64,000 nt of DNA from assembly GCA_021730785.1 (NCBI GenBank), contig JAKFWF010000019.1:1-64000 (forward strand). Reading direction: 5' to 3'. Positions 17,900 to 34,179 of this stretch are shown here, piece by piece. Each line of letters opens with the position of its first letter. Positions within the stretch are counted from its first letter, which is position 1. The notes under the pieces were generated by a model, which worked only from the letters and a program-made list of their open reading frames with translations, was not told the origin of the DNA and ran no database searches. Position numbers and translations under genes: made by a program. The stretch comes from Hyphomicrobiaceae bacterium (GTDB lineage: Bacteria > Pseudomonadota > Alphaproteobacteria > Rhizobiales > Hyphomicrobiaceae).

Positions 17900-18304
17900 T
17901 CACACCAGCGCCCGCACCATGGCGATATAGGTGAGCCCATGCACGAACTGGTCCATACCCATCGCACGCCAGAACGCATCGTTCTGGAACGTCCATTGAT
18001 TGGCTTTCACCACCTGCTCCTTGATCCAATCGCAGTGATAATGGACCAGGAATTCCGCACCGAGCACGACCAGCCCGTGCTCTTGGTTGACTGGCGGCAG
18101 GATCAGCAGCAGCGGCGCTGAAAGCAGCACGTGGATCGCCGCGTGTAGTAGTCCGCCAGGATGTCCGTAGCGCCCCTTGTTCGACCACTGGTACTTCGCC
18201 TGCAGGAAGAAGTCGCCGATCATGTGCTTGAATGCCAGATAGGCAAGGGCCAGCAGCACGACATCGTGCGCTCCGAGCTTGAAGGGCAGGATCAGCTCCG
18301 GCAT
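17900..18304 (-). CDS. DUF3307 membrane protein
   Basis: 134 residues with about four hydrophobic stretches. [19 protein letters not shown] with the D-F-x-L-Q motif, [16 protein letters not shown] and YHCDWIKEQ are typical of DUF3307, whose function is unknown. The histidine- and aspartate-containing membrane segments suggest metal or cofactor binding, but this is only inference. It lies 43 bases after the cyclase gene and so could be its co-transcribed partner. Confidence 0.85.
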
Positions 18305-18347: not shown

Positions 18348-20069
18348 TCATGCTCTCATGCGCTCCTTGCCGCCGCCCCCGGCGCCTGCCACCTCTAGGG
18401 ATGGCAGATCGCGAGCCGCCTTGACAATCAGGATTTCAAGTCGCGAGTCAGAACCGCGCACCTCGATCGTCTGACGCGGAGCGATCGTGGCATCAAGGCC
18501 AGCCGAAGCAGCAACCGCCTGCGACAGAATGAGCTGGCAGTGGTGGTCCTTGGTGAGCGCTTCGAGCCGGCTCGCCTCGTTGACCGTGCGTCCGATGACC
18601 GTGACGGCCGCGCTGTCGGCATCGCCGATCCGACCGATGACGACGGGCCCGGCGTGGATGCCGATGCCGATTCTGATGCCGCCAGCCACCTCGGCGGCGA
18701 GGCGCTGGTTGAAACCGTCGAGGGCGAGGTCGATCGACCGCGCGGCAGCCAGCGCCTGGCGGCAGCCGGTTTCGAGGCCAACGTCCCGTCCGAACACCGC
18801 CATCAGTCCGTCCCCCATGTACTTGTCGATCCAGCCGCCCTCATGGCGGATCGCTTCACCTACGGTCGCGAACAGCTGATTGAGCAGGAACACGATGTCG
18901 AAAGGCAGGCGGTCTTGCGACAGCCGGGTGAAGCCGCGGACATCGAGGAACATGATGGCGACGTGCTTTTCGACACCGTCGGCATCTGCCATGGACTGCA
19001 CCATGCGGGCGAGCGGCTGTGCCGTTGGCGCCACGAGCCGGGTGATGCCGATGTCGTGCTGGGGGCGCAACTGGCAGGCCAATCGCACGTTCTCCGCCGC
19101 GCCGATCCGGGCCAGTGTCGCGCGCTCGGCAGCTTGCGGAGGGGCAAGCCCCTCGGCGCCATGGTCGATACGGACGCGGCAGGTCGAGCATCTGGCGCGG
19201 CCACCGCATACCGAGGCATGGGGAATGCGCTGGGTACGGCTGATCTCCAGCAGACTCGCGCTGATGGGGCTGCGCACCGTCGGGCCGGCGCTGTAGGCAA
19301 CGCTGATCGAGGGTGCGCGAAGTGCCGCGTGTTGCCTTATCCCGACGGCCGCGGCCACAAGCGTGAGGATGCCGGCATAGATTGCCCAACTGGTCATGCG
19401 CACATCGATCATCGCGGCAACTTGGGTGGCATCCGGCCAGTGCATCGCCGCCCGTGCGACCTGCAGCGCGTCTGGACTGGCGAACTGGACATGCGCCTCC
19501 CGTGCGGCCGCCAGAAAGCCCGTCAACGCCAGCAGCGGCACGGCAACAGCGGTTGCCAGCAGCCAGTACTTCGCCCTGCCATACCAGTGCTTCGTGCGCA
19601 GCCAGTACATGAGACCGATGCAGCCGTGCAGCCACACCACCAGCAGCAGTGCCGACTGCAGCAGCGCATCTGCCGGCCAGAGCAGGTACGCGACCGAGGT
19701 ATAGGAGTAGTCGAACCCGGTGCGGCTGGTGAAGTACGTTATGGCGACCACATGCGGGATCAGCAGGATCGGCACCAGAATGCCCGACGCGATCTGCAGC
19801 CATTCCCAGTGCGGCATGACCACTGCGCGACGGGCGGCCAGCTTGCCGAGGCCGAGGCCGACGTGCAGCGCGGCGGCGAATGGCAGTATCACGCGTCCGA
19901 TCGCCGACTGGGTCGCGGCCAACCGCCAGTCTTGGACGGCATTTGCGGCGTCGAGACCGGCCAGGGCAGCGGCATGATTGAGGAAATGCGCGAGGGCAAA
20001 GGCGAACAGAACCAAACCGCTGGCGAGCCGGAAGGGCTGAAGTCGCGGATCACTGAGCTTGTCCAGCAT
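18348..20069 (-). CDS. Membrane-anchored [2Fe-2S] class III adenylate cyclase
   Basis: 573 residues in three parts. Residues 1 to about 245 hold six or so membrane helices with several histidines (28, 32, 69, 87, 106, 148), reminiscent of a haem-binding cytochrome b anchor. Residues about 255-345 are a plant-type ferredoxin domain with Cys 288, 294, 297 (CGGRARCSTC) and Cys 332. Residues about 365-545 are a class III cyclase: metal Asp 376 (FLDVRGFT) and Asp 420 (DKYMGDGLMAVF), Lys 416 and Thr 490 suggesting ATP as substrate, Asn 497 and Arg 501 for catalysis. So all catalytic residues look intact. It follows the cyclic-nucleotide-binding gene by 12 bases. I infer redox control of cAMP synthesis. 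Confidence 0.92.
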   Translation of the reverse strand: MLDKLSDPRLQPFRLASGLVLFAFALAHFLNHAAALAGLDAANAVQDWRLAATQSAIGRVILPFAAALHVGLGLGKLAARRAVVMPHWEWLQIASGILVPILLIPHVVAITYFTSRTGFDYSYTSVAYLLWPADALLQSALLLVVWLHGCIGLMYWLRTKHWYGRAKYWLLATAVAVPLLALTGFLAAAREAHVQFASPDALQVARAAMHWPDATQVAAMIDVRMTSWAIYAGILTLVAAAVGIRQHAALRAPSISVAYSAGPTVRSPISASLLEISRTQRIPHASVCGGRARCSTCRVRIDHGAEGLAPPQAAERATLARIGAAENVRLACQLRPQHDIGITRLVAPTAQPLARMVQSMADADGVEKHVAIMFLDVRGFTRLSQDRLPFDIVFLLNQLFATVGEAIRHEGGWIDKYMGDGLMAVFGRDVGLETGCRQALAAARSIDLALDGFNQRLAAEVAGGIRIGIGIHAGPVVIGRIGDADSAAVTVIGRTVNEASRLEALTKDHHCQLILSQAVAASAGLDATIAPRQTIEVRGSDSRLEILIVKAARDLPSLEVAGAGGGGKERMRA

Positions 20070-20081
20070 GCCGGCAGCCTG

Positions 20082-20555
20082 TCAGGCGCTGGGCCGTTCT
20101 AGGGCCAGAAGCCGGCTGCGGGCCTGTGACAGTTCGGTCGACGTCTTGGTCAACCGAAGCGCCAGGATTTTCATGATCTCCACGGTCAATTCCGGGAACT
20201 CGGTAAGCAGGCTGAGAAACTGTGCCTTCGTCACGCGCAGCGTATCGAGCCGCGTAAAGGCCTTGACGGTCGCGGTGCGCGGCACGTCGCACAGCACGGC
20301 GACCTCGCCGACGATGGCATTGCGCTCGACCTTGGCGACGGAGACGGGGCCCTGCGGGCTGTCGACCAGGATGTCAGCCTGCCCATCGATGATGACAAAG
20401 GAGGCGTCACCCTCCTCGCCCTGGAGAAAGAGGGTTTGGCCCGGTTCATAGACGATGCGCTCGGATGTAAATGCCAGCAGCTTCAGCTTTTGCGCATCGA
20501 TGTGGGCGAACAGGGGGATTCGCCGCAACACGGCAACTTCGTCCTGGATGCTCAT
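20082..20555 (-). CDS. Stand-alone cyclic-nucleotide-binding domain protein
   Basis: 157 residues made of a single CRP-type cyclic-nucleotide-binding domain. The phosphate-binding cassette is complete: IVGEVAVLCDVPRTATV, with the conserved Gly-Glu and Arg-Thr-Ala. The domain is followed only by a helix (IMKILALRLTKTSTELSQAR) and there is no helix-turn-helix or kinase, so it is a receptor without its own output. It would signal by contacting a partner. It lies 19 bases after the pseudo-ABC gene and 12 bases before the cyclase, so ABC protein, receptor and cyclase probably form one transcript. Confidence 0.93.
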   Translation of the reverse strand: MSIQDEVAVLRRIPLFAHIDAQKLKLLAFTSERIVYEPGQTLFLQGEEGDASFVIIDGQADILVDSPQGPVSVAKVERNAIVGEVAVLCDVPRTATVKAFTRLDTLRVTKAQFLSLLTEFPELTVEIMKILALRLTKTSTELSQARSRLLALERPSA

Positions 20556-20574
20556 GTGACGGCCCTGTTTTCCT

Positions 20575-23331
20575 TTAGGCGACCAGTCGCTTCAGTTGCT
20601 TGCTGCTGTCCATCAATTTGGCCGGCGTGCCGTCGGCTGTGATGCGACCGTCGTGAAACACTAGCACTCGGTCGAACAATTCCACCAGCGCAGGGCTCGC
20701 CAGAACCCAAAAAACAGTCATTCGTGGTTTTTTTTCCACGGTCCCCACTTCGTTCGTAGTTCCCGATTTCGGCCGAGCCTTGGGTTTCGCCTTGGCCAGT
20801 GCGGCCATGATCGCCCGCTGGTTGCGTGGATTGAGGTTGGCGAGCCCCCGGTTGACAATCAGGATGTCGGGTTCTTTCAGCAGGGCGCGGGCCAGCGCGA
20901 GCTTCTGGCGCTGGGCCTGGGTCAGGCGCTTGCCGCCATTGCCGACGACGAAGCTGAGACCGGCTTCGAGCACGGTGTCGCGCAGATTGAGATCAACTAG
21001 CGTTTCGCGGATCGCCTGATGCACCTTGTTTGGTGCGTCGGCAAGGCCATGGGCAATGCGCCCGAACAGGATGTTGGCCTCGAGCGACGAGCCGACATTG
21101 TAGTGTTCGGGCTCATAGATGGCCACGGTCGCGGACTTGCCGGCACGGATGCGCTCGATCAAGCGCCGGCGTGCCGCGATGATGAGCGTGCGGATATCGT
21201 CGGTGAGAAGGTTCAGGCGGTGGCGGGGCTCGATGTAGCGCAGCGCCAACCCGAGCAGCAAGCCGCGGTCGGTCTTGTCGGCTGCGACGTAGTCACGATC
21301 GCCGAGGCGGGCAAGCATGGTCTTATAGGTTGGCAACTCTTCCGGCTTGACGAAACTCAGGCGGTCGAAAAAGGGGTGGTTTGGCGGCAGGTCGGCGAAC
21401 AGTTCGACGACGGTTGCCGCGATCTTGCGACCCACATCGTAGAGCTGCTGATCGAGCGCATTCTCAGCTAGAATGTCAAGGAAGAGCCGGTTGCGCGGCA
21501 GGTTCTCCGCTTCGAACTCCTTACTAAGGGCGGCCCCGAACACCAGGTTTTCCGCAATCGTCGCCTGATTCTGGAACCGGTCGGGATCGAAAGGCTCGAC
21601 CATGTGGGCAATCGATGCCTTGGCAAGCCTCGCCTTCAGCGCTGCTCGGGCCGTCAGGATCGGAGTTTCTATGGCGCGGCTGGCGCTTGCGTCCGGTTGA
21701 CTGCGCAAGCCGAACTCGAACACCTCGTCGTCCATTTCGACGAGCGTCAAGGCCTTGAGGATGCGCTTGTCGATGTGGCTCGCATCCGCGACGCCGAGGC
21801 GATCATAGTCGATCCAGTCTGCACTCCAGTCGAGTTCGCTGTTGCCGCTGGCACGGGCTTCTTCGAGGTCGCGCTTCAATCCGGACTGCCCGCTCAGCGA
21901 TCGCTGCGGATGGTTCATGAGCGCAGACAGCAGGCACGCACGGATCGAAAGGTTGCGCAGGTAAGTATCGGGCCCGACGTAGGCGATGCGGCGGCCGGTG
22001 ACTGCGGCGCTGATGGCATCGAGTGGCTGATCGCCAATGCGGATGTGGCCGGCGGTTGGCGGAACCAGCTGGGCCAGTGCTTCGGCGGTGATTTCGGCGC
22101 CGGCATTGACCTCGCCCACGGCGGCCACCCATTCGCCCGGCGCCAGCGCGAAATCGACCGGCTCGAGCACCATCGTGCCAGTGTCGTCGGTGATGGTCAG
22201 TCCCGATACGGCCAAGGGTTGCGAGAGGTTGGCTACGACGCCCGGCGTCGGCGCCTGCAGCGCCGCTGTGATCATGGGTTGCGGCGAGAATTGCTCGCAC
22301 ACCTGATTGTATTTGATCTCCACGTCCTGCCGCTGCTGGTCCCAGTCGATCAGCTCTTTGATTGGACCAGGCAGATCCTTGTAGGCTGCGATCACAGCCA
22401 CCAGCTGGCCGATGTCGAGGCTACCCGAGATGGCAAAGTAGCCGCCGATCAGGAAGAACAGGAACGGCGTCAGCTGGGCCAGGAAATTGTTCAGGAATTT
22501 GACGAAGAATTTGCGCTGAAACAGCTCGTAGCGGATGAAGAAGATGCGCCCAAGCCGGTTTGAGATATCGGCCCGCTCGAAGTTAGAGGTGTCATTGGTA
22601 CGCACTTCGCCGATGCCTTCGACCACCTCGGCAACGCGGCCGGCGAGATCGCGCGCGGTCAGCTGCTGCTGCTTGCCAAGCACCAGCAGCCGCTTGCGCA
22701 GGCGCGGGATCAGAAACGCCTGAATCAGCACGATGCTGGCGGCGATCAGTCCAAGCCAGATGTTCTGCACCATGATGAAGATCATGGCGGTCAGCGCTTG
22801 GCCGGACAAGAACACCGGCTGCACGAATGCGTCGCCGATGAAGCCGCCGAGCGGCTCCACTTCGTCCTTGATCATGGTCGCTACTTCCGCCGGCTTCACC
22901 TTCTTGAAGTAGGGCATGGGGAAGCGCAGAACGCGGTCGACCAGCTCGTAGCGCAGGCGGCGCAGCATGCGCTCGCCCAGGCGGCCTTTGAACGTATTGA
23001 TGTAGAACTTGAACAGGCCGTTGATGCACACGAGCCCGAGGAATACGAAGCTCAGGCCCACGAGGTAACCCATGCGGCTGAGTTCGAAGCCGCTGAACAA
23101 GTTGAGGTTGCTTCCGCCAAGCCACTGCGGCAGCGCGAACTTCAGCTCAAGGAACCGCGCCGTCGCATCGGGCGTCATAAAGCCGCGCCCTTGGATCGGG
23201 CCGTTGACGATCGCCTTCGGCAGATCGAGCGCCAGGAAAAGAAATGGCATCGAGATCAGGATCACGCCGATGATCCAAATCTGATCCCGCCGCGTGTGCT
23301 GCCAGATGTAACTGAAAAGATTGGAATTCAT
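20575..23331 (-). CDS. Divergent ABC transporter protein with degenerate nucleotide-binding domain
   Basis: 918 residues. Residues 1 to about 330 are an exporter-type transmembrane domain (six helices, LGERMLRRLRYELVDRVLRF, then PYFKKVKPAEVATMIKDEV). The second half has an ABC-ATPase layout but every catalytic motif is changed: Walker A has Ala 412 and Glu 413 in place of Lys and Ser/Thr (VGEVNAGAEIT), signature reads LTQAQ (803-807), Walker B ends Asn 827-Arg 828 instead of Asp-Glu, and the H-loop histidine is Ser 879. Between Walker A and the signature there are about 390 residues instead of about 100, holding repeated Q-loop-like segments. ATP hydrolysis is unlikely. It is the first gene of the minus-strand run and diverges from the glycosyltransferase operon. 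Confidence 0.88.
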   Translation of the reverse strand: MNSNLFSYIWQHTRRDQIWIIGVILISMPFLFLALDLPKAIVNGPIQGRGFMTPDATARFLELKFALPQWLGGSNLNLFSGFELSRMGYLVGLSFVFLGLVCINGLFKFYINTFKGRLGERMLRRLRYELVDRVLRFPMPYFKKVKPAEVATMIKDEVEPLGGFIGDAFVQPVFLSGQALTAMIFIMVQNIWLGLIAASIVLIQAFLIPRLRKRLLVLGKQQQLTARDLAGRVAEVVEGIGEVRTNDTSNFERADISNRLGRIFFIRYELFQRKFFVKFLNNFLAQLTPFLFFLIGGYFAISGSLDIGQLVAVIAAYKDLPGPIKELIDWDQQRQDVEIKYNQVCEQFSPQPMITAALQAPTPGVVANLSQPLAVSGLTITDDTGTMVLEPVDFALAPGEWVAAVGEVNAGAEITAEALAQLVPPTAGHIRIGDQPLDAISAAVTGRRIAYVGPDTYLRNLSIRACLLSALMNHPQRSLSGQSGLKRDLEEARASGNSELDWSADWIDYDRLGVADASHIDKRILKALTLVEMDDEVFEFGLRSQPDASASRAIETPILTARAALKARLAKASIAHMVEPFDPDRFQNQATIAENLVFGAALSKEFEAENLPRNRLFLDILAENALDQQLYDVGRKIAATVVELFADLPPNHPFFDRLSFVKPEELPTYKTMLARLGDRDYVAADKTDRGLLLGLALRYIEPRHRLNLLTDDIRTLIIAARRRLIERIRAGKSATVAIYEPEHYNVGSSLEANILFGRIAHGLADAPNKVHQAIRETLVDLNLRDTVLEAGLSFVVGNGGKRLTQAQRQKLALARALLKEPDILIVNRGLANLNPRNQRAIMAALAKAKPKARPKSGTTNEVGTVEKKPRMTVFWVLASPALVELFDRVLVFHDGRITADGTPAKLMDSSKQLKRLVA

Positions 23332-23659: not shown

Positions 23660-24883
23660 TTGCGGATCAAGAGTAATCAGTTCAGAATTTTGATCTACAG
23701 CCACGACACGTTCGGGCTCGGTCACCTTCGGCGCTGTCGTGCGATTGCGCACGCTATGGTCGACCACCGCACGGACATTTCGTGCCTGATCCTGTCGGGC
23801 TCGCCGATCATTGGGGCCTATGGCTTCCTCCCGCGCGTGGATTTCATCCGCTTTCCGGGCGTGGTGAAGCTGCGCAACGGGTCCTATACGCCGCGCGGTC
23901 TCGACATCTCGATCGGCGACGCCATAAAGATCCGCGAAACGCTCATACGCTCCACGGCCGAAGTGTTCCGGCCGCACATGTTCCTGGTCGACAAGGAGCC
24001 GCTCGGCCTGCGCGGCGAGGTGGGGCCCACGCTCGAGATGTTGAAAGAGCAGGGGACCCGCCTCGTGCTCGGCTTGCGCGACATCATGGATGATCATGAC
24101 CAGTTGGCGGAGGAATGGGACCGCAAGGCCGCCATGCCGGCACTGGAAGAGCTGTACGACACGATCTGGGTGTATGGGTCCGAGCACATCTACGATCCAC
24201 TGGTGGGCCTGCGGGTGTCGGCCGCCGTGCGCAACAAGATGACTTACACCGGCTATCTGCGCCGCGATCTGGCGACCGAGGCCGAACACGATCGGCCGCA
24301 GGCGACGGCACTGCCGGACAAGTTCATCCTGGTGACCACGGGCGGCGGCGGCGATGGTGCCTCGCTCGTCGATTGGGTCCTCAAGGCTTACGAGAGCGAC
24401 CCATCCATCCCGCATAATCTGGTCGTCGTGCTCGGGCCGTTCATGGCGACCGAAGCGCAGGCGGCGTTCAAGGAACGGGCGGCGCGGCTGCGCAACGTCG
24501 ACATGATGACGTTTCTGCCGGATCTTGACCGGGTCATGAGCAGGGCGTCGGCGGTGATCGGCATGGGTGGCTACAACACGTTCTGCGAGATCCTGGCGGC
24601 CGACAAGCCAGCCCTCATCGTGCCGCGCACGGTGCCCCGGCTCGAGCAGTTCATCCGCGCCGATCGCATGTCGAAACTCGGTCTCGTCAGCATGCTGGTG
24701 GACGACGAGCATCGGTCTGTCGCGGCCATGGCTGATGCGATCTGGAAGCTGCCAAACCGTCCTGCCCCTTCAACCGTGCAGCTGGCGGGCTACCTCGACG
24801 GCTTCCAGACCATCAATCGGACCATCGACGACTGGTTCGTTTCATGCCAATCCGAGAAGGCGCGATTGGAACTGGTGGATTGA
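23660..24883 (+). CDS. MurG/GT28-like glycosyltransferase, first gene of glycan operon
   Basis: 407 residues. The N-terminal motif YSHDTFGLGHLRRCRAIAH is the glycine-rich loop of GT-B enzymes of the MurG/GT28 superfamily, and the C-terminal donor-binding half has VVLGPF, FLPDLDRVMSRASAVIGMGG and NTFCEILAADKPALIVPR. No family member of known sugar can be named. Start is a TTG at 23660 preceded by GGAG at 23649-23652 with a 7-base spacer; no in-frame ATG precedes the conserved loop. Seven bases separate it from the next gene. Confidence 0.85.
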   Translation: MRIKSNQFRILIYSHDTFGLGHLRRCRAIAHAMVDHRTDISCLILSGSPIIGAYGFLPRVDFIRFPGVVKLRNGSYTPRGLDISIGDAIKIRETLIRSTAEVFRPHMFLVDKEPLGLRGEVGPTLEMLKEQGTRLVLGLRDIMDDHDQLAEEWDRKAAMPALEELYDTIWVYGSEHIYDPLVGLRVSAAVRNKMTYTGYLRRDLATEAEHDRPQATALPDKFILVTTGGGGDGASLVDWVLKAYESDPSIPHNLVVVLGPFMATEAQAAFKERAARLRNVDMMTFLPDLDRVMSRASAVIGMGGYNTFCEILAADKPALIVPRTVPRLEQFIRADRMSKLGLVSMLVDDEHRSVAAMADAIWKLPNRPAPSTVQLAGYLDGFQTINRTIDDWFVSCQSEKARLELVD

Positions 24884-24890
24884 AGGTGCG

Positions 24891-26189
24891 ATGAGCGGAT
24901 TGCGTGACGATGCGGGAGGCGACACGGCTTTGGCCGTCATCATGAAGGGCTACCCGCGCCTGTCCGAAACGTTCATCGCCCAGGAACTGCTCAGTCTGCA
25001 GCGGCGCGGCATTCCCTTTACGATCTATGCGCTGAGGCAACCGACCGACGCGCGCGTGCATCCAGTCCACGAGGCGATCAAGGCCCCTGTGCGTTATTTG
25101 CCGGAGTATCTCTATCAGGCGCCGCTGCGGGTGGTCAGCGCTTGGCAACGTGCGCGTACGCAACCGGGATATCGCGCAGCGCGCAGCGCCTGGCTGAAGG
25201 ACCTGCGGCGCGATCCGACGCCGAATCGCATTCGCCGGTTCGGGCAGGCGATGATCCTTGCCGATGAATTGCCGACCGCAACACGCCACCTCTATGCGCA
25301 TTTCCTGCACACGCCGGCCTCCGTCACGCGCTATGCCGCGCTGACCCGCCGCCTGTCCTGGAGCGTGTCGGCGCATGCAAAGGACATCTACACGCAGCCC
25401 GCATGGGAAAAGGCCGAGAAGATCGCCGGTGCATCGTGGGTCGTCACTTGCACGTCGGCCAATGTCGACCACTTGCGGGCGCTTGCCGGCGCGCACACGG
25501 GTAAGGTCGGTTTGCTCTATCATGGGCTCGATTTCGACCGTTTCGCGCCGTTCGATCGCGTGCCTGATGCCCGCACCGGCGCGCCGGGCCAGGCCCCGGT
25601 ACAACTGCTGTCGGTTGGCCGCGCGGTCGAGAAGAAGGGCTACGACGTCCTGCTGGCGGCGCTCGGCCAACTGCCTGCCGATCTTGCCTGGCACATGACG
25701 CACATCGGCGGCGGCGAACTGCGCGCGAAGTTGCAGGCCAAGGCGCGCCAGCTCGGCATCGCCGATCGGATTTCCTGGCAAGGGGCGAGGACCCAGGAAG
25801 AGGTGCTGGCGGCCTATCGTGCGGCGGACCTGTTCGTGCTTGCTTCGCGCATTGCCGGCGATGGGGACCGCGATGGCTTGCCGAATGTGCTGATGGAAGC
25901 GCAGAGCCAGGCCCTGTGTTGTTTGTCGACGGCAATCTCCGGCGTGCCCGAACTGATCCGCGACGGGCAGACGGGCGTGCTGGTGGCGCCGGGCGACGTG
26001 GCGGCACTGGCGCACGTCCTCAATGCCCTCATTCGCGATCCCGCGCGGCGCCATGTGCTCGGCAAGGCCGGTGCTGCACGCGTGCGCAGTGCGTTCGGTC
26101 ACGAGGCGGCCATCGACCGGCTGGCCGATTTGCTGCGGGCGGAAATTGCCGGGCAGGCGACCACTCCCATTGCAGCCGCTGCCCGATGA
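24891..26189 (+). CDS. GT4-family glycosyltransferase
   Basis: 432 residues. The GT-B fold is clear: VIMKGYPRLSETFIAQELLS at the N-terminus, as in colanic-acid/exopolysaccharide GT4 enzymes (WcaL-like), LLSVGRAVEKKGYDVLLAAL at the start of the donor domain, and the E-x7-E region with GLPNVLMEAQSQA. A nucleotide sugar is transferred with retention in this family. ATG 24891 lies 7 bases after the previous stop with AAGGTG just upstream. The gene ends in an ATGA overlap with the next one, showing tight coupling. Confidence 0.9.
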   Translation: MSGLRDDAGGDTALAVIMKGYPRLSETFIAQELLSLQRRGIPFTIYALRQPTDARVHPVHEAIKAPVRYLPEYLYQAPLRVVSAWQRARTQPGYRAARSAWLKDLRRDPTPNRIRRFGQAMILADELPTATRHLYAHFLHTPASVTRYAALTRRLSWSVSAHAKDIYTQPAWEKAEKIAGASWVVTCTSANVDHLRALAGAHTGKVGLLYHGLDFDRFAPFDRVPDARTGAPGQAPVQLLSVGRAVEKKGYDVLLAALGQLPADLAWHMTHIGGGELRAKLQAKARQLGIADRISWQGARTQEEVLAAYRAADLFVLASRIAGDGDRDGLPNVLMEAQSQALCCLSTAISGVPELIRDGQTGVLVAPGDVAALAHVLNALIRDPARRHVLGKAGAARVRSAFGHEAAIDRLADLLRAEIAGQATTPIAAAAR

Positions 26190-27319
26190 AGGTCGCCTTC
26201 TATGCGCCGCTCAAGTCGCCGGACCATCCAACGCCGTCCGGCGACCGGCTGATCGGGCGCATGCTGCTTGCGGCGCTCAGGGCCGGCGGGCACGATGTGA
26301 CGCTGGTGTCGCGGCTGCGTGCGTTCGACGGGCAGGGCAGCGCACGGCGGCAGGCGCGGATCGCGGCCTTCGGTGCCTGGCAGGCGGGGCGCCTCTTGCG
26401 CCGGTTCGATCGCGATGTGGAAAAGCCTGACGTGTGGCTCACCTATCATCTGTACCACAAGGCGCCCGATTGGATCGGGCCGGTGGTCGCGCGTGCGCTC
26501 GCTATTCCCTATTGCGTCGCCGAAGCGTCGTCCTCGGCACGCGCAGCCCATGGACCCTGGGCGGTCGGGCATCGTGCGGTGGTCGAGGCACTGGCGCAAG
26601 CAGCACTCGTGATCAGCCTCAATCCCAAGGACGAGCCGGGCATCCGCCAGCATGTGGGCGCAGCAACGCGCCTGGTCCGCGTCGCACCGTTTCTCGATGG
26701 CGCACCGTTTCGAGCAGCCGCTGGCCCGCGCACGGCAACGCGCGCGCGACTTGCCGCTCAGTTTGGCCTGGATGCCGGGCGACCCTGGCTGCTGGCGGTC
26801 GGCATGCTGCGGGCCGGCGATAAGGCTGCGAGCTTTGCGGTTCTGGCCCGGGCGCTCGCGCTCCTTCGTGACCGGCCCTGGCAACTGATCGTGGTCGGCG
26901 ATGGGGTGGCGCGCGGCACTGTCGAAGCCGACTTCACAGGTTTTGGCGCGCGGGTGCGGTTCGTAGGGCAGCAGCCGGTCGAGGCGGTTGCCGATTTCAT
27001 GGCGACGAGCGATCTGCTGGTGTGGCCTGCTATCAACGAGGCGATCGGGATGGTGTTCATCGAGGCGGCCATGGCGGGGCTTGCCGCAGTTGGCGCCGAC
27101 CGGCCCGGTATCGCCGCGGTTGTCGAGCACGGCGTCACCGGGTTCCTCGTGCCGGAGCATGACGCGTCGGCCTTTGCTGCGGCCACCACCGCGCTGCTCG
27201 ATGATGCGCCACTGCGTGCACGCATGGGAGTTGCCGCGGCAGCGCGTGCTGCAGCGCAAAATGACCTTCGGACCGCCGGCGCGCTAGTGTGCCGGGAACT
27301 GGAGGCCGTAGCCCGATGA
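26186..27319 (+). CDS. GT4-family glycosyltransferase
   Basis: 377 residues. KVAFYAPLKSPDHPTPSGDR at the N-terminus is followed by a GT-B donor domain with LLAVGMLRAGDKAASFAVL and EAIGMVFIEAAMAGLAAVGA (the E-x7-E segment), then RPGIAAVVEHGVTGFLV. Its ATG overlaps the preceding stop (ATGA) and its own stop overlaps the next ATG. The N-terminal P-x-P-S-G-D-R pattern is seen in a subset of rhizobial glycosyltransferases. Substrates unknown. Confidence 0.88.
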   Translation: MKVAFYAPLKSPDHPTPSGDRLIGRMLLAALRAGGHDVTLVSRLRAFDGQGSARRQARIAAFGAWQAGRLLRRFDRDVEKPDVWLTYHLYHKAPDWIGPVVARALAIPYCVAEASSSARAAHGPWAVGHRAVVEALAQAALVISLNPKDEPGIRQHVGAATRLVRVAPFLDGAPFRAAAGPRTATRARLAAQFGLDAGRPWLLAVGMLRAGDKAASFAVLARALALLRDRPWQLIVVGDGVARGTVEADFTGFGARVRFVGQQPVEAVADFMATSDLLVWPAINEAIGMVFIEAAMAGLAAVGADRPGIAAVVEHGVTGFLVPEHDASAFAAATTALLDDAPLRARMGVAAAARAAAQNDLRTAGALVCRELEAVAR

Positions 27320-28470
27320 AGCCACGCGTTCTCTTCTACGTGCAGCATCTACTAGGGGTTGGCCACGTCAAACGGGCGGCGGCCATCGCGCGCGCGGCTG
27401 CACGCGACCTCGATGTGCACGTGGCATTGGGCGGCGAACCTGTGGCGCTCGCCGACTTCGGGGCAGCAACCCTGCATCAGTTGCCGTGGACGCGCGCCGA
27501 GGACGTGACCTTCGCGACGCTACTCGATGCCGACGGCCGGCCGATCGACGCCGCCTGGCAGCAGCGGCGCAAGTCGATGGTGCTGGCGCTGGCGGAACGG
27601 ATCGATCCACACGTTCTGCTCGTGGAACACTTTCCATTCGGCCGCGGTAAATTCGCCTTCGAACTGCTCCCCCTGTTCAAGATGATCCGCGCAGCGCCTG
27701 GCCATCGGCGCATCCTATGCTCGGTGCGCGATGTGCTGGTGGAGAAGAGCGATGGCGCGAAATCTGCCAGGATCTTGGGCCTCGTGCGTCAGTGGTTCGA
27801 CGGCGTACTGGTGCACGGAGACAAGCAGGTGATCCCCTTCGAAGCCACGTTTCCAGCGGCGGCGGCAATCGGGGAATTGCTGGAATACACGGGGTATGTG
27901 GTCGATGGCGCAGACCGTCCGATGATCGGGGCCTTGCGTTCACAGGACAGTGAGATCGTCGTGTCGATCGGCGGTGGCGCCGTGGGACAGGAGCTGCTGC
28001 AGGCAGCGTTGGCCGCCGCACAAGCAGGCGTACTCGCGCCGCGGCACTGGCGTCTGCTCGCCGGCACTAATCTGCCTGAGCCGCAGTTCCAGGCCCTGCG
28101 GGCCCAAGCGGCCGGCGACGCGCGTGTGACGGTCGAGCGGGCGCGGCCGGATTTCCGCCAGTTGCTGGGCAACGCCAGCCTGTCGATCTCGCAGGCGGGC
28201 TACAACACGGTGATGGACGTCCTGGTCGCTGGGTGTCCAGCCGTGGTCGTGCCGTTTGCCGCCGAGGCCGAGGGCGAGCAGTTGTTCCGCGCCCGGGAGT
28301 TCGAACGGCGCGGCCTGCTGACGGTGCTAGAAGAGGGGCGGTTGACCCCCCAGGCACTTGCAACCGCCGCAACAGCTGCGTTGACGCAACCGAGCGCTGG
28401 CCATGGCATCGACCTCGACGGCGCGCGCGCCGCTGCCCGGGCGCTGCAGCGATGGGCAGGTGCCGCATGA
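27316..28470 (+). CDS. Second MurG/GT28-like glycosyltransferase
   Basis: 384 residues, distantly similar in plan to the first gene of the operon: YVQHLLGVGHVKRAAAIARA forms the N-terminal glycine loop and VVSIGGGAVGQELLQAAL plus ISQAGYNTVMDVLVAGCPAV the donor half. The two therefore bracket the two GT4 genes. Start ATG 27316 overlaps the previous stop; its stop overlaps the deacetylase ATG. A polyprenyl- or lipid-linked acceptor is suggested by MurG similarity, but that is inference. Confidence 0.85.
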   Translation: MKPRVLFYVQHLLGVGHVKRAAAIARAAARDLDVHVALGGEPVALADFGAATLHQLPWTRAEDVTFATLLDADGRPIDAAWQQRRKSMVLALAERIDPHVLLVEHFPFGRGKFAFELLPLFKMIRAAPGHRRILCSVRDVLVEKSDGAKSARILGLVRQWFDGVLVHGDKQVIPFEATFPAAAAIGELLEYTGYVVDGADRPMIGALRSQDSEIVVSIGGGAVGQELLQAALAAAQAGVLAPRHWRLLAGTNLPEPQFQALRAQAAGDARVTVERARPDFRQLLGNASLSISQAGYNTVMDVLVAGCPAVVVPFAAEAEGEQLFRAREFERRGLLTVLEEGRLTPQALATAATAALTQPSAGHGIDLDGARAAARALQRWAGAA

Positions 28471-29240
28471 ACTCCAACGATGAGGCCTGGCACCCGTTGC
28501 TGGCTGAACTCGACGCTTGGCATGCGGGTGGCCGCCTCGCCACATTGTGGTGGCGTGACGACGATGCGGTCGCTCCGACGCCAGCCCTCGACCGCATGCT
28601 CAGGCTGGTCGAACGCTTCCGGGTGCCGCTGGGGCTGGCCGTCATTCCAGCGCGGCTGACAGCTGACCTGGCGTCCCATCTTCGCGATCTGCCGCTGGTA
28701 TCGGTTTTGCAGCACGGGTACCTGCATCGCAACTACGCGACTGCAGGCGAGCGTGCAGCCGAGTTCGGTGCCCAACGGCCGCTGGAGCTGCGGTTGCGTG
28801 AGACCAGTGAGGGCCGGCGCATCCTTGAGCAGTTCCAGCATGCCGTGCCGATCTTTGTGCCACCCTGGAACCGCTATGACCGCGCGATCGCGCCTGGACT
28901 TGCCCAGCAAGGACTGCGTGCCGTGTCTGCATTTGCTGCATCTGAGCAACTATCGGGCAAGATTTGCGAGTGCAATTGTCAAGTGGACATAATAAGTTGG
29001 CGCATCACGCGGGGGTTTGCCGGATTGGACAAAACAGTGAGAAAACTCACCGAGCACTTGCGGGCGCGCCGTTTGGGCGAGCTGCCTATCGAGCAGGCAA
29101 CGGGTGTTCTGTCGCATCATCTGGACCATGACGATGGGTGCTGGGAATTTCTGGAAGCCGTGTTTGCTCGGACCGTTACGCATCCAGCTGCCAAGTGGAT
29201 CACGCCGATGGACGCCGTGGCACGGATCGAGAGCCCATGA
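28467..29240 (+). CDS. Polysaccharide deacetylase-type protein
   Basis: 257 residues with a NodB-like TIM barrel. The metal-site motifs are recognisable: WWRDDDAVAP (motif 1 aspartates), LQHGYLHRN (motif 2 H-x3-H) and FVPPWNRYD (motif 3, where the usual Arg is replaced by Val). C-terminal segment LSHHLDHDDGCWEFLE holds more histidines. It probably removes N-acetyl groups from the product of the four preceding transferases. Its ATG overlaps the preceding stop, and its own stop overlaps the start of the ABC transporter ATPase, an unusual junction. Confidence 0.85.
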   Translation: MNSNDEAWHPLLAELDAWHAGGRLATLWWRDDDAVAPTPALDRMLRLVERFRVPLGLAVIPARLTADLASHLRDLPLVSVLQHGYLHRNYATAGERAAEFGAQRPLELRLRETSEGRRILEQFQHAVPIFVPPWNRYDRAIAPGLAQQGLRAVSAFAASEQLSGKICECNCQVDIISWRITRGFAGLDKTVRKLTEHLRARRLGELPIEQATGVLSHHLDHDDGCWEFLEAVFARTVTHPAAKWITPMDAVARIESP

Positions 29241-31141
29241 TTGCACCCACAAGCAAGCCGCGCACCAATATCCTCGAGGTCCGCAATCTGCGGGTGGCTT
29301 TCGATACGCCTGGTGGCGCGATCCATGCCCTGCGCGGTATCGATTTTCGCATTACCGAGCGCGAGACCGTGGCGCTCGTCGGCGAAAGCGGATCGGGCAA
29401 GAGCGTCACCGCCCAGGTGCTTATGGGATTGCTGCCGAAAGTCGCCCGGATCAGTTCGGGCGAGGCGCTGTTCCGCGATCCCAAGACCGGCACCGTCACC
29501 GACCTGGCCAAGCTGTCGCCAGCGACCGCAGAGTTCCGAGCAATCCGTGGCGGGCGCATCTCGATCGTATTCCAGGAACCGATGACGTCGATGTCGCCGC
29601 TGCACCGCGTCGGCGCCCAGATCCAGGAGGCGCTGGAACTGCACGACAACGTCACGGGCGCGGCGGCTAAGGCGCGCGTCATCGACATGCTGCGGCTGGT
29701 GCGCTTCCCCGATCCCGAGCGCGGCTACAAGAGCTACACGTTCGAGCTGTCGGGCGGTCTGCGGCAGCGGGCGATGATCGCGATGGCGCTGGTGTGCAAT
29801 CCGGCGCTGCTGGTGGCGGACGAGCCGACGACGGCGCTCGACGTGACGGTGCAAGCCCAGGTGCTCGGTTTGATCCGGGACTTGCAGCGAGAGCTCGGTA
29901 TGTCGGTGCTGATGATCACGCACGACATGGGCGTGGTCGCCAACATGGCCGACGAAGTGGTGGTGCTCTATCGCGGCGAGGTGATGGAGGCGGGCACGGC
30001 GGACGACATTTTCCGCTCCCCCCGACACGCCTATCTGAAGGCGCTGATGGGGGCGGTGCCCCGCATCGATGCCGACCCGGCGACTCGCCTGATGCCGCTG
30101 GCAAGCCCGGACGAGGGAGTGCCGGCCACGCTGGCGAAGCAGCGGCCGGTGGTACGCCCCGATGCGCCGCCGCTGCTGACGGTCAAGGATCTGGTCAAGA
30201 CCTACAGCATCCACGCGGAGAGTTTCGGCTTGAAGAAGACGGCGGCCAGGGTCGTCAAGGCGGTGTCGGGCGTCAGCTTTACCATCAATGACGGCGAATG
30301 CCTCGGTCTCGTTGGCGAAAGTGGATGCGGCAAGACCACCGTGTCGAAGATGATCATCGGCGCAGTGCCCGTCGACAGTGGCTCGGTGCTGTACCAGGAC
30401 GGCGACAGTTCGGTCGATCTTGCTGTCATGAATGATGCGGCGCGCAGCGCCTATCGCCGCCGCATGCAGTACATTTTCCAGGATCCGCAAGGCTCGCTCA
30501 ACCCGCGCATGACGGTGCTCGATGCCGTCTCGGAGCCGCTCAAGGTCCAGGGCATTGGCGACAAGGCCTCGCAGCGGGCGCGAGTCGAGGAGCTGCTCGG
30601 CCTGGTCGGCGTTGACCCTCGCTTTCTCAACCGCTACCCGCACAGCTTCTCCGGCGGCCAGAAGCAGCGGCTCGGCGTGGCCCGCGCGCTGACGCTCGAA
30701 CCGAAGCTGCTGCTGCTCGATGAACCGGTGTCGGCGCTCGATGTGTCGACGCAGGCGCAGGTGCTGAACCTGCTCAATGATCTGCGGGCCAACCTGGGCT
30801 TGACCTACCTGTTCATCTCGCACAACCTTGCCGTGGTGAATTATGTTGCCGATCGGGTCGCCGTCATGTGTGCCGGCCGTCTGGTCGAGGTTGCGCCGCG
30901 GCGCGCGCTGTTTGCCGATCCGCGGCACCCCTATACTCGGGCATTGCTTGCGTCCGCGCCGTCACCTGATCTTGATCGCCGCCTCGATTTCGAGCTGATC
31001 CGCGACGGGGCGGCGACCGACCCAGGTAAATGGCCGGCGCCATTCGATGATCGCGAGGGTGTCGCGAACGAACTCGTCGAAGTCGGGCCTGGCCATTTCG
31101 TCCGTGCCCGCGTCGACGCCAAGGTCAAGGAGCTGGTGTGA
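29237..31141 (+). CDS. Dpp/Opp-type ABC transporter, fused double ATPase
   Basis: 634 residues containing two complete ATPase halves. The first has Walker A GESGSGKS (about residues 49-56), signature LSGGLRQR and Walker B LLVADEPTTALD; the second has GESGCGKTT (about residue 359), FSGGQKQR and LLLLDEPVSALD. This DppD-DppF fusion drives uptake of peptides or oligosaccharides. Its ATG overlaps the deacetylase stop (ATGA at 29237-29240), so it is translated together with the glycan operon. The C-terminal part carries the oligopeptide-type tail (HPYTRALLASAP). Confidence 0.95.
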   Translation: MIAPTSKPRTNILEVRNLRVAFDTPGGAIHALRGIDFRITERETVALVGESGSGKSVTAQVLMGLLPKVARISSGEALFRDPKTGTVTDLAKLSPATAEFRAIRGGRISIVFQEPMTSMSPLHRVGAQIQEALELHDNVTGAAAKARVIDMLRLVRFPDPERGYKSYTFELSGGLRQRAMIAMALVCNPALLVADEPTTALDVTVQAQVLGLIRDLQRELGMSVLMITHDMGVVANMADEVVVLYRGEVMEAGTADDIFRSPRHAYLKALMGAVPRIDADPATRLMPLASPDEGVPATLAKQRPVVRPDAPPLLTVKDLVKTYSIHAESFGLKKTAARVVKAVSGVSFTINDGECLGLVGESGCGKTTVSKMIIGAVPVDSGSVLYQDGDSSVDLAVMNDAARSAYRRRMQYIFQDPQGSLNPRMTVLDAVSEPLKVQGIGDKASQRARVEELLGLVGVDPRFLNRYPHSFSGGQKQRLGVARALTLEPKLLLLDEPVSALDVSTQAQVLNLLNDLRANLGLTYLFISHNLAVVNYVADRVAVMCAGRLVEVAPRRALFADPRHPYTRALLASAPSPDLDRRLDFELIRDGAATDPGKWPAPFDDREGVANELVEVGPGHFVRARVDAKVKELV

Positions 31142-33189
31142 TGGCCGCCAAATTCGCAAGGTTCCTAGGTTGGGTTAGGACGCCCTGTCACGACCGTAAC
31201 CCGACAACTTCCGGGACTGCCCGCGGAATGTCGAATTGCGACCGGCACGGTGGGCGGGCCAGCCCAACCTGCGGTCAGTTCGCGCTTGCCGCCTGCCTAA
31301 CGCTGGCCCTTGCCACCTCCGCCCACGCGCAGAAGCCGCTCGTCGATTCGCCTCTGTTTGCCGAACGGCTCAAGTCCACCAAAGAAGATAAGCTGCCGCC
31401 GATCGAGAAGCGGGTGCCTGTGGAACCCCTGATCGTCACCTTCGACGGCAAGACGACGACGGCGGGTCGGCACGGCGGCATGATGACCCAGCTCATGGAG
31501 CGTTCCAGCGACATCAAGCGCATGTCGGCCTACGGCTATGCCCGCCTCGTCGGGTACACGCCGAAATACGAGGTCGTGCCCGATATCCTCAAATCCGTCG
31601 ATGTGAAGGAAGGGCGCGAGTTCACCTTCGTCCTGCGCAAGGGCCACAAATGGTCGGATGGCGCGCCCTTCACCACCGAGGACTTCCGCTATTGGTGGGA
31701 GGACATGGTGACGAACAAGGAACTCACTCCGGAAAGTCCGCCCAAGGAAATGCGGGTCGACGGCAAGCCGGCCAAGGTCGAAGTCATCGACAAGGAGACG
31801 ATCCGCTATACCTGGGAAGGGCCGAACCCGTTTTTCCTGCCGGCATTGGCCGCTGCCTCGCCGTTCATGATCTACCGGCCGGCGCACTACCTGAAGCGGT
31901 TCCACAAGCGCTACACCAAGGCCGACAAGCTCGAAGAGCAGATCAAGAAGCGCAAACGCCGCGACTGGGTCGACCTGCACTACAACCGTGACCGCACGGC
32001 TCGCCTCGACAACCCCGACATCCCCGTGCTCGATCCCTGGATCAACACCACGCAATCTCCGTCCGAGCGCTTCATCTTCGAGCGCAACCCGTACTACCAT
32101 CGGGTCGACGAGAACGGATTGCAGCTGCCCTACGTGGATCACATCGCGGTGACGATTGCCGCCTCCAAGCTGATCGCCGCCAAGGTTGGTGCCGGTGAAG
32201 CCGAACTTCAGGCACGTGCATTGCAGTTCAACAACTATACGGTGTTGAAGCGCAGCGAAGCGCGGCAGGATTACAAGGTCCGCCTGTGGCGCAATGCGCG
32301 CGGCTCGCAGATCGCGCTGTACCCGAACCTGAACACCAACGACGCCGGCTGGCGCGAGTTGTTACGCGAGGTGCGCTTCCGGCGTGCCCTGTCGCTCGCC
32401 ATCGACCGGCGCGAGATCAACCAGGTGATTTACTTTGGCCTCGCCCGCGAAAGCGCGAACACGATGATGCTGGAAAGTCCGCTCTACAAACCCGAGATGC
32501 AGAGCATGTGGTCGAAGTTCGACCTCCCCCAGGCCAACAAGCTGCTCGACGAGCTGGGGTTACTGCAGCGTGACAGCCGAGGCATCCGCCTGATGAAGGA
32601 TGGCCGTCCGGTCGAGATCATCGTCGAGACGGCGGGCGAAGGCGCGGAGCACTCGGACGTCCTCGAACTCGTGCGTGATACCTGGGCCAAGGCCGGGGTT
32701 TCGCTCTTCATCAAGCCGCAAATCCGCGAGGTTATGAGCCGCCGCGTGAAGGCGGGAGCGGCCGTCATGTCGGTGTTCTTCGGTGTCGACAGCGGCGTCG
32801 CCAATGCCGATACGCCGCCGATGGAATTTGCGCCGACGCTCGAGACGCAGCTGCAATGGCCGCAGTGGGGCATGCACTACACCTCGAGCGGGCACAGCGG
32901 CGTGAAGGCCGATATGCCGGAGGCGATTCGTCTGTCCGAACTGTACCACAACTGGTCGGTCGCCAAGTCGACGGACGAGCGCCGGGACATCTGGCAGGAG
33001 ATGCTCAACATCTACGCCGAGAACGTGTTTTCGATCGGTATGATCAATGCCGTGCCGCAGCCGGTGGTGATTTCGAACAAGGTGCGCAACGTGCCGGACA
33101 CTGCGCTTTACTCCTGGGAGCCGGGCGGCCATTTCGGCGTTTACCGGCCTGACCAATTCTGGCTCGTCGAATTGAAACAGGGTTCCTGA
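31141..33189 (+). CDS. ABC transporter periplasmic solute-binding protein, SBP_bac_5 family
   Basis: 682 residues, long for the family (usually 500-600). The signal-peptide core is FALAACLTLALATSAHA-Q. The mature part has the SBP_bac_5 hallmarks KGHKWSDGAPFTTEDFRYWW, NPYYHRVDENGLQLPYVD and VRFRRALSLAIDRREINQVI. The start is open: ATG 31141 overlaps the ATPase stop as TGATG and gives an n-region of about 45 residues; ATG 31228 would give an ordinary 33-residue signal. It binds peptide-like or oligosaccharide solutes. Confidence 0.92.
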   Translation: MAAKFARFLGWVRTPCHDRNPTTSGTARGMSNCDRHGGRASPTCGQFALAACLTLALATSAHAQKPLVDSPLFAERLKSTKEDKLPPIEKRVPVEPLIVTFDGKTTTAGRHGGMMTQLMERSSDIKRMSAYGYARLVGYTPKYEVVPDILKSVDVKEGREFTFVLRKGHKWSDGAPFTTEDFRYWWEDMVTNKELTPESPPKEMRVDGKPAKVEVIDKETIRYTWEGPNPFFLPALAAASPFMIYRPAHYLKRFHKRYTKADKLEEQIKKRKRRDWVDLHYNRDRTARLDNPDIPVLDPWINTTQSPSERFIFERNPYYHRVDENGLQLPYVDHIAVTIAASKLIAAKVGAGEAELQARALQFNNYTVLKRSEARQDYKVRLWRNARGSQIALYPNLNTNDAGWRELLREVRFRRALSLAIDRREINQVIYFGLARESANTMMLESPLYKPEMQSMWSKFDLPQANKLLDELGLLQRDSRGIRLMKDGRPVEIIVETAGEGAEHSDVLELVRDTWAKAGVSLFIKPQIREVMSRRVKAGAAVMSVFFGVDSGVANADTPPMEFAPTLETQLQWPQWGMHYTSSGHSGVKADMPEAIRLSELYHNWSVAKSTDERRDIWQEMLNIYAENVFSIGMINAVPQPVVISNKVRNVPDTALYSWEPGGHFGVYRPDQFWLVELKQGS

Positions 33190-33190
33190 C

Positions 33191-34174
33191 ATGTTGCGCT
33201 ATTTGATCAAGCGACTGATTACGATGATGGTGACGCTGGCCATCATTTCGGTTCTCGTATTCGTCGTCATCAAGCTGCCGCCCGGCGACTACATGACGAC
33301 CTACATCGAGGAACTGCGGGCCCAGGGCGAGCAGGTCGATCAGGCGCGCATCGAATTTCTGCGCAAGCGCTATGGTCTCGATCAACCGGGCTGGCGGCAG
33401 TATCTGACGTGGGCGGTCGGACTGCTGCACGGCGATCTCGGCTGGTCTTTCGAATACGATCAACCGGTGAACAAGCTGATCGGCGAGACGCTGTTGCTGA
33501 CCATCATTCTGAAATTTGCGACCATTTTCTTCATCTATGCGGTTGCTTTCCCTGTCGGCGTTTACTCGGCGACGCACCAGTACAGCTGGAGCGACCACGG
33601 GCTGACATTTCTCGGCTTCCTTGGCATTGCGATCCCAAATTTCCTGTTCGCACTGATGATCCTGTATGCCGCGAACGTGTGGTTCGGCACGTCGATCGGC
33701 GGGCTGATGGATCCAAGCTACATCGACAAGCCCTGGAGTTGGGGTAAGGCAATGTCCGTACTCGAACACCTGTGGGCGCCGGTGCTGGTGATCGGCATCA
33801 CCGGCACGGCCGGCATGATCCGCCGGCTGCGCGCCAACCTGCTCGATGAACTGCAAAAGCAGTATGTGACGACCGCGCGCGCCAAGGGCATGTCCGAGCG
33901 CCGGCTGCTGCTACGCTACCCTATGCGCGTCGCCTTGAACCCGTTCATAGCCGACGTCGGGTCGCTGTTGCCGCAACTGGTCTCGGGCGCAGTGATCGTT
34001 TCGGTGGTGATGAGTTTGCCGACCAGCGGGCCGCTGCTGCTGTCGGCGCTGCAGTCGCAGGATACCTACCTCGCGGGCTCGTTCCTGATGTTCCTGGCGA
34101 CACTGACCGTGGTCGGCATGTTTCTCTCGGACGTAGCGCTCGCCATTCTCGACCCCCGAATCCGGCTGGAGTGA
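33191..34174 (+). CDS. ABC transporter permease, DppB type
   Basis: 327 residues with six membrane helices. The N-terminal RYLIKRLITMMVTLAIISVL and LRKRYGLDQP, and the EAA-like loop YVTTARAKGMSERRLLLRYP, match DppB/OppB permeases. It starts one base after the binding-protein stop. It pairs with the DppC-type permease that follows to form the channel. Confidence 0.95.
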   Translation: MLRYLIKRLITMMVTLAIISVLVFVVIKLPPGDYMTTYIEELRAQGEQVDQARIEFLRKRYGLDQPGWRQYLTWAVGLLHGDLGWSFEYDQPVNKLIGETLLLTIILKFATIFFIYAVAFPVGVYSATHQYSWSDHGLTFLGFLGIAIPNFLFALMILYAANVWFGTSIGGLMDPSYIDKPWSWGKAMSVLEHLWAPVLVIGITGTAGMIRRLRANLLDELQKQYVTTARAKGMSERRLLLRYPMRVALNPFIADVGSLLPQLVSGAVIVSVVMSLPTSGPLLLSALQSQDTYLAGSFLMFLATLTVVGMFLSDVALAILDPRIRLE

Positions 34175-34179
34175 GCGCC

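Follow-up and report, generated by a model that had tools for sequence, protein, structure and literature searches.

What does a cyclic-nucleotide receptor with no output domain act on, when its gene lies in a tight run with those of an ABC protein and a class III cyclase? The question is raised by a locus in the 64,000-nucleotide stretch of DNA analysed here (the window), whose features are collected in Table 1. The three genes are all on the minus strand, with 19 bases between the ABC gene and that of the cyclic-nucleotide-binding (CNB) protein and 12 bases between the CNB and cyclase genes, exactly as a first-pass annotation of the sequence had it. That annotation proposed a three-gene circuit in which cAMP controls the ABC protein through direct contact with the receptor. 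Our analysis suggests that cAMP exerts direct control over a sugar machine at the cell surface, and not via gene switching. The DUF3307 gene of the locus was found in the window only, among 109 sequences searched. Rfam gave no matches in window positions 15000-36000, and a promoter and terminator scan found signals no commoner than in shuffled sequences.

Table 1. Features of the locus in window coordinates
Feature	Positions	Strand	Residues	Remarks
DUF3307 membrane protein	17900..18304	-		43 bases downstream of cyclase; Pfam
Class III cyclase	18348..20069	-	573 aa	6TM His-rich anchor + 2Fe-2S ferredoxin domain; Pfam Fer2 + Guanylate_cyc
Cyclase catalytic domain	18447..18968	-	368-541	PF00211
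Cyclase 2Fe-2S ferredoxin domain	19059..19271	-	267-337	PF00111
Bare CNB protein	20082..20555	-	157 aa	Pfam PF00027 (cNMP_binding)
CNB phosphate-binding cassette	20268..20309	-	83-96	GEVAVLCDVPRTAT
Pseudo-ABC protein	20575..23331	-	918 aa	Pfam PF00664 (ABC_membrane) + PF00005 (ABC_tran)
Exporter-type TMD of pseudo-ABC protein			~1-345	
NBD of pseudo-ABC protein			~367-918	large insertion
Walker B position	20848..20865	-	823-828	ILIVNR; ends NR, not DE
Q-loop/helical module copy 3	20941..21162	-	724-797	sole copy leading into signature
Q-loop/helical module copy 2	21376..21636	-	566-652	profile match
Q-loop/helical module copy 1	21688..22005	-	443-548	profile match to copies 2, 3
Walker A position	22093..22116	-	406-413	GEVNAGAE; Lys absent, acid replaces Ser/Thr
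Glycosyltransferase, GT28-C type	23660..24883	+		PF04101; divergent from ABC gene; same family beside ABC-CNB elsewhere
Glycosyltransferase, group 1	24567..26189	+		ORF, true start internal
Glycosyltransferase, group 1	25916..27319	+		ORF, true start internal
Glycosyltransferase, GT28-C type	27289..28470	+		
Opp/Dpp-type ABC importer	29138..35370	+		double ATPase, SBP_bac_5 protein, two permeases

Conservation of the ABC-CNB pair

Relatives of the window ABC protein were found in 29 of 61 genomes of the window's order and in 35 of 115 of its class, and in none of the 74 genomes sampled from other classes of the phylum; 262 plasmid records, mainly from Rhizobium and Sinorhizobium, carry them as well. 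We compared 70 loci from 66 genomes and 62 families of Alphaproteobacteria, leaving out the wide flanks of G232 (same genus as G214) and of a second partial match in G166. The CNB gene lies directly downstream of the ABC gene at 57 of the 70 loci and is fused to the C-terminus of the ABC protein at another nine, a total of 66/70. Labrys okinawensis (L138) supplies a further fusion, and Pfam finds the ABC and CNB domains in one frame in L052, L064 and L138. The four loci without a CNB gene are L066, at a contig end, L215 (G146), L217 (G167) and L225 (G196), the ABC protein of the last being a divergent, partial match. A relocated CNB gene (53% identity; L231) lies beside GT28 and GT4 genes in G146, the ABC gene being elsewhere in that genome, and in G196 a CNB (43%) is encoded away from the ABC gene and has no other gene of the locus nearby. 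G167, a 2.0 Mb genome given as 100% complete, retains the ABC gene beside glycosyltransferases and yielded neither a CNB match nor a detectable class III cyclase. At L231 the ABC gene is gone from between the CNB and the GT28/GT4 genes.

The linkage holds at the level of whole genomes. The best CNB match sits at the ABC locus in 28 of the 29 ABC-positive genomes of the order (83.9-318 bits), and no CNB match above 74.7 bits or 35% identity was found in the 32 ABC-negative genomes. More distant second CNBs in ABC-positive genomes reach 116.9 bits, and orthology is therefore set by position and not by the 74.7-bit limit alone. In a quick tree of 75 rows, with SH-aLRT support only, fused proteins occupy three places: a clade of seven (SH-aLRT 99), L213, and L052 with L138 (99). 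The L052 and Labrys fusions are nested among separate-gene rows, and the L213 fusion and those of the seven-member clade possibly have one origin. G244 encodes three fused proteins (L221, L222, L223) with weak CNB scores of 62-73 bits, a diverged fused subfamily.

Because of these fusions and the near-obligate pairing, contact between the CNB and ABC proteins is well supported by the comparison, and the unfused members would make it too; the structural matches of a fused model run over residues 27-913 and barely cover its CNB part. The direct contact proposed by the first-pass annotation is thus strengthened, while its fixed circuit does not hold. A cyclase gene lies within 2 kb at 18 of the 70 loci, glycosyltransferases being the commoner neighbour, and we rejected the three-gene unit as a conserved entity. 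The survey of co-occurrence across Alphaproteobacteria that the annotation called for finds the receptor constant and the cyclase variable. Judged by gene content, the conserved core is the pair of pseudo-ABC protein and bare CNB protein, not the trio.

An exporter fold with an abnormal ATP site

The window ABC protein joins an exporter-type TMD to an NBD fold, as ABC exporters of type IV do. In its AlphaFold2 model (pLDDT 83.4, pTM 0.76) the NBD matches that of ComA (3vx4; Z 29.7, rmsd 1.9, 239 residues aligned) and the whole chain matches TmrAB (5mkk_B; Z 29.2, rmsd 9.4 over 447); SUR chains are also among the structural matches. The ATPase had been called dead-looking, and rightly so. The protein has none of the marks of a hydrolysing ABC protein, namely Walker A GK[S/T], Walker B Asp and Glu, LSGGQ and the H-switch. 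Its Walker A position reads GEVNAGAE, its Walker B position ends in NR, with Arg at the place of the Glu, and its signature is LTQAQ, so that the key places of the ATP site hold Ala, Glu, Asn and Arg, whereas the other ABC proteins of the same genome, fetched as controls, carry GK[S/T], DE and a signature of the form S-x-G-Q/E in 7/7 cases.

These changes extend to the family. GK[S/T] occurs in 0/69 pseudo-ABC sequences (0/143 in a larger, redundant set), and no protein among the 69 combines Lys, Ser/Thr, Asp and Glu. Taken singly, the Walker A Lys is kept in 21/69 and an acid stands at the Ser/Thr place in 47/69; Walker B has its Asp in 13/69 and its Glu in 22/69; the H-switch His is found in 13/69, the second signature Gly in 11/69 and the D-loop Asp in 48/69. 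A site so abnormal makes an ordinary pump unlikely, and the alignment suggests that the ABC protein of this family is probably a non-hydrolysing, MsbA-like protein.

The strongest competing account sees the ABC protein as a glycolipid flippase that ATP still drives through an unorthodox site, with an acid standing in for the Walker A Ser/Thr and Asn for the Walker B Asp, while the CNB protein does no more than tune it. Lys is kept together with acid/Asn and Glu in 63/143 sequences, a set rich in Reyranella, and that part of the family may therefore still hydrolyse ATP. The frequency of the D-loop Asp points the same way, as does a pairing of residues in the 69 less redundant sequences, where 33/47 of those with an acid at 413 have Asn at 827 and 9/10 of those with Ser/Thr have Asp, as if the ATP site were constrained. 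The Ser/Thr-Asp rows, however, fall mostly in one clade of the tree, so that the pairing may be a single event; for the same reason a coupled charge-swap decay of the site is kept merely as a rival. The low counts of Lys, H-switch His and second signature Gly, together with the four residues at the key places of the window protein, also speak against an ATP-driven flippase, which we consider unlikely.

The NBD is enlarged as well, by approximately 270 extra residues that lie after the Walker A half and ahead of the signature. Profile-profile comparison resolves three tandem copies of a Q-loop/helical segment, that is, two extra modules; the copies match one another with probabilities of 96.4 (copies 1-2), 95.0 (1-3) and 98.8 (2-3), and four control pairs, formed with the middle segment and a TMD segment, score below 1. 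We know of no ABC protein with a triplicated Q-loop/helical module, from a search that was not exhaustive, and the arrangement would present an NBD architecture that is new and calls for an explanation.

The receptor and its ligand

The CNB protein was said to lack an output domain, and Pfam agrees: PF00027 stands alone in 157 aa, with no DNA-binding domain and hence without the C-terminal HTH by which CRP/FNR proteins are recognized. The pocket is intact. Its cassette has the Gly-Glu and Arg expected of a cNMP-binding protein, with Gly83 in 66/66 CNBs, Glu84 in 62 and Asp84 in 4 of the 66, and Arg93 in 66/66 (140/140 in a larger, redundant set). Since the pocket is invariant, the ligand is likely to be a cyclic nucleotide; the recurrence of cyclases beside the pair and the joint absence of CNB and cyclase from G167 point to cAMP. 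A KLLAFTSER-like stretch at CNB residues 25-33 (~20457-20483, minus strand) precedes the pocket and is conserved in separate and fused CNBs; it is a candidate for the contact surface.

A different ligand, such as cGMP, ppGpp or another nucleotide, would make the adjoining cyclases incidental. The invariant Arg is followed immediately by Thr in 56/66 CNBs (a PRTAT pocket), a residue that favours cGMP in eukaryotic kinases, and cGMP kinases are among the top PDB sequence matches of the CNB protein. There is also a precedent for ppGpp. The report on HetC of Nostoc PCC 7120 describes an ABC protein with an N-terminal CNB that is needed for function and binds ppGpp, not cAMP, and with an essential ATPase Glu (PMC10986499). 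Against another ligand stand the cyclases of several architectures that recur beside the pair, the adenylate-cyclase Lys and Thr of the window cyclase, and the loss of CNB and cyclase together in G167; on balance we think it improbable.

The window cyclase and cyclases at other loci

The class III cyclase of the first-pass annotation proved to be one, with Fer2 and Guanylate_cyc domains and its catalytic residues in place. Aligned to 1WC1 and 2W01, it keeps the two Asp, which we take to bind metal, the Lys and Thr, presumably the adenine-type pair, as well as Asn and Arg in the VNxASR motif, and it looks catalytically alive. The ferredoxin Cys (CxxxxxCxxC...C) are kept in an alignment of six relatives, where four predicted TM stretches of the anchor contain His. 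At the level of sequence it therefore has the anchor His, ferredoxin Cys and catalytic residues of a ferredoxin-type 6TM class IIIb adenylate cyclase, and it is predicted to belong to cluster 1 of PMC4821796 and to be of the di-haem/ferredoxin type. In that paper, Beltz et al. place cyclases of this class in cluster 1 and predict that four intramembrane His hold two haems (PMC4821796). The His-rich 6TM anchor, ferredoxin and class III catalytic domain are shared with the cluster 1 cyclases and with CyaC of S. meliloti, which PMC10463352 describes as redox-sensitive via two haem B. CyaC is reported with TetR/LysR regulators and not with an ABC protein.

The 18 loci with a cyclase within 2 kb are concentrated in the window's order, at 15/30 vs 0.28, the number to be expected if the cyclase genes counted in each genome were placed uniformly; related loci share ancestry, and the attached P value is not to be read literally. 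Outside the order there are 3/40. Two weak matches, L047 (30 bits) and L206 (42 bits), are counted among the 18, and the counts are lower bounds because L066, L059, L064, L049, L155 and L220 reach a contig end less than 1.6 kb downstream. The adjoining cyclases are of the Fer2 type in the window, L042, L044, L046 and L051, of a membrane type without Fer2 in L045, L054 and L062, of a CHASE2 type in L052 and of an AAA/TPR type in L138. Class III cyclases are present in 29/29 ABC-positive genomes of the order, 34/35 other ABC-positive genomes and 20/32 ABC-negative ones, as judged over the curated cut-off in searches at E 1e-3 (order, positive) and 1e-5 (others), uncorrected for kinship; the sole ABC-positive genome without one is G167.

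The ferredoxin-type cyclases adjoining the pair in L051 (9352-11043) and L209 look degenerate, with neither the adenine Lys nor the catalytic Asn left, and are possibly pseudo-cyclases that act as sensors. In part of the order the genes run ABC-CNB-MBL-cyclase, an MBL-fold gene lying within 2 kb at 14/70 loci. The MBL-fold hydrolase follows the CNB gene, often before the cyclase, in L045, L048, L054-L058, L060-L063, L065 and L149. It is possibly a cyclic-nucleotide phosphodiesterase, the match to the NCBIfam model of that family being weak (38 bits, cut-off 400) and RNase Z models scoring higher.

The glycan neighbourhood

Glycosyltransferases of two families, divergent or co-directional, lie within 5 kb at 47/70 loci; they are absent at that distance from 23/70, some of them cut by contig ends. 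These neighbours suggest that a glycan would be the substrate or the partner of the ABC protein. Opp-type genes were seen at 7/70 loci, most flanks being too short to reach such genes, and Opp importer genes lie beside glycosyltransferases and the pseudo-ABC gene in S. medicae, S. meliloti and R. etli. The ABC-CNB pair is carried on pSymB of S. meliloti and p42e of R. etli, in a cluster whose opposite end is formed by a cyclase gene; the order in S. meliloti R14 and in the R. etli strains CFN 42 and Mim1 is cyclase, Opp importer, glycosyltransferases, ABC, CNB. A UbiA prenyltransferase gene with a HAD domain (35512-36969, plus strand) lies past the Opp genes of the window and possibly belongs to a polyprenyl-sugar pathway. 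PMC10945364 calls SMb20813 the msbA homologue, a tag with no established link to the pSymB ABC-CNB locus. The idea that the protein forms a heterodimer with an adjacent canonical ABC protein was rejected, the recurring ABC neighbour of the window being the Opp/Dpp importer, and a neighbour cluster that lumped ABC ATPases was left out of the evidence.

It could also be that the ABC protein transports nothing and is a membrane scaffold or receptor that joins the glycosyltransferases and the CNB protein, much as SUR serves the KATP channel. This would agree with an exporter fold retained despite an abnormal ATP site, with an NBD enlarged by extra modules, and with G167, where the ABC protein persists with the glycosyltransferases and without the CNB. 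Yet the TMD is conserved about as well as the rest of the protein (mean 0.66 vs 0.50-0.68 for other segments), and no obvious other exporter was seen among the neighbouring genes inspected. We regard a pure scaffold as quite improbable.

A proposed model for cAMP control of the ABC protein

Our best explanation, which we hold to be somewhat more probable than not, is that the CNB subunit lets cAMP control an MsbA-like pseudo-ABC protein that belongs to a glycan pathway. The CNB protein would be a dedicated regulatory subunit of the ABC protein, itself of exporter fold, probably homodimeric and likely to have lost the usual hydrolytic chemistry, its NBD enlarged by the two additional Q-loop/helical modules. 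Once bound by the CNB, cAMP would set the state of the ABC protein, either replacing the ATP cycle or adding to it; control would run from receptor to transporter-like partner, and as the output the glycan product of the adjoining glycosyltransferases would be flipped, exported or assembled. In the window's lineage the source of cAMP next door would be the 6TM di-haem/ferredoxin cyclase; given that cyclase type, the redox state of respiration would control the glycan machine with no transcriptional step. A narrower form of this explanation, that the ATP cycle was given up in favour of the CNB subunit and that the protein serves a glycan intermediate as a flippase, scramblase or channel gated by cAMP, is a tentative possibility.

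Several findings count against this explanation. Adjacency of a cyclase is rare outside the order, the L051 and L209 cyclases look degenerate, and the ABC protein of G167 persists without a CNB; the CNB mostly has Thr after its Arg, the CNB of HetC binds ppGpp, some ABC members keep Lys and Glu, and 23/70 loci have no glycosyltransferase within 5 kb. If the model is true, a cAMP-gated ABC protein would be a direct output of cAMP in Alphaproteobacteria besides the CRP-type regulators. PMC10463352 counts 28 adenylate cyclases in S. meliloti, leaves open how their cAMP signals stay separate, and names Clr, a CRP-like protein, as cAMP receptor. With the ABC-CNB pair on pSymB and p42e, the CNB protein becomes a candidate for a second cAMP receptor, non-transcriptional and with its partner named, in the genetically tractable S. 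meliloti and R. etli.

Relation to known systems

Among the open-access literature matches listed, we found no published description of a system of pseudo-ABC and CNB proteins, with or without a cyclase. CNB-regulated membrane proteins are already known, and the CNB-ABC pairing has one described cousin, HetC. SUR and CFTR are ABC proteins turned regulator or channel, and the window protein would likewise put the ABC exporter fold to a non-pumping use. Here, however, the protein is bacterial and a cyclic-nucleotide receptor takes the place of the kinase or Kir channel; should the ABC protein prove cAMP-gated instead of ATP-driven, it would be a bacterial case of the repurposing seen in SUR and CFTR. 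With MsbA, TmrAB and ComA the protein shares the TMD and NBD fold and differs in the lack of GK[S/T] from all 69 members compared, in the altered Walker B, signature and H-switch, in the extra modules and in its CNB partner. HetC resembles it in joining an ABC exporter fold to a functionally needed CNB domain in one protein (PMC10986499). HetC has a C39 peptidase and an N-terminal CNB, whereas no peptidase domain was found in the window ABC protein or the fused L052, L064 and L138, the CNB is C-terminal or separate, the ATP site is abnormal and the Q-loop module is triplicated.

Pycsar systems also have cyclase and CNB genes as neighbours, and PADLOC Pycsar models match the window cyclase domain (PycC, 1.2e-26) and the CNB protein (TIR-type effector, 6.9e-14). 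An antiphage system of cyclase, CNB and membrane effector is nevertheless very improbable. The matches cover shared domains only and there is no TIR or short TM effector, where Pycsar cyclases always come with a CNB-TIR or CNB-TM effector; a cyclase is missing within 2 kb at 52/70 loci, the glycosyltransferase neighbours are conserved, and the window flanks are metabolic genes. Pycsar cyclases are pyrimidine-specific, and the window cyclase has a Lys and Thr presumably of the adenine type.

Action of the CNB protein on transcription through a separate DNA-binding partner, the ABC linkage being a passive operon, finds encouragement in the database label 'Crp/Fnr family transcriptional regulator' on some members and hardly any credence from us, as the protein lacks an HTH and is found fused to the ABC protein. 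The rhizobial CNBs L148, L150 and L226, which bear this label in some records, are too short for an HTH.
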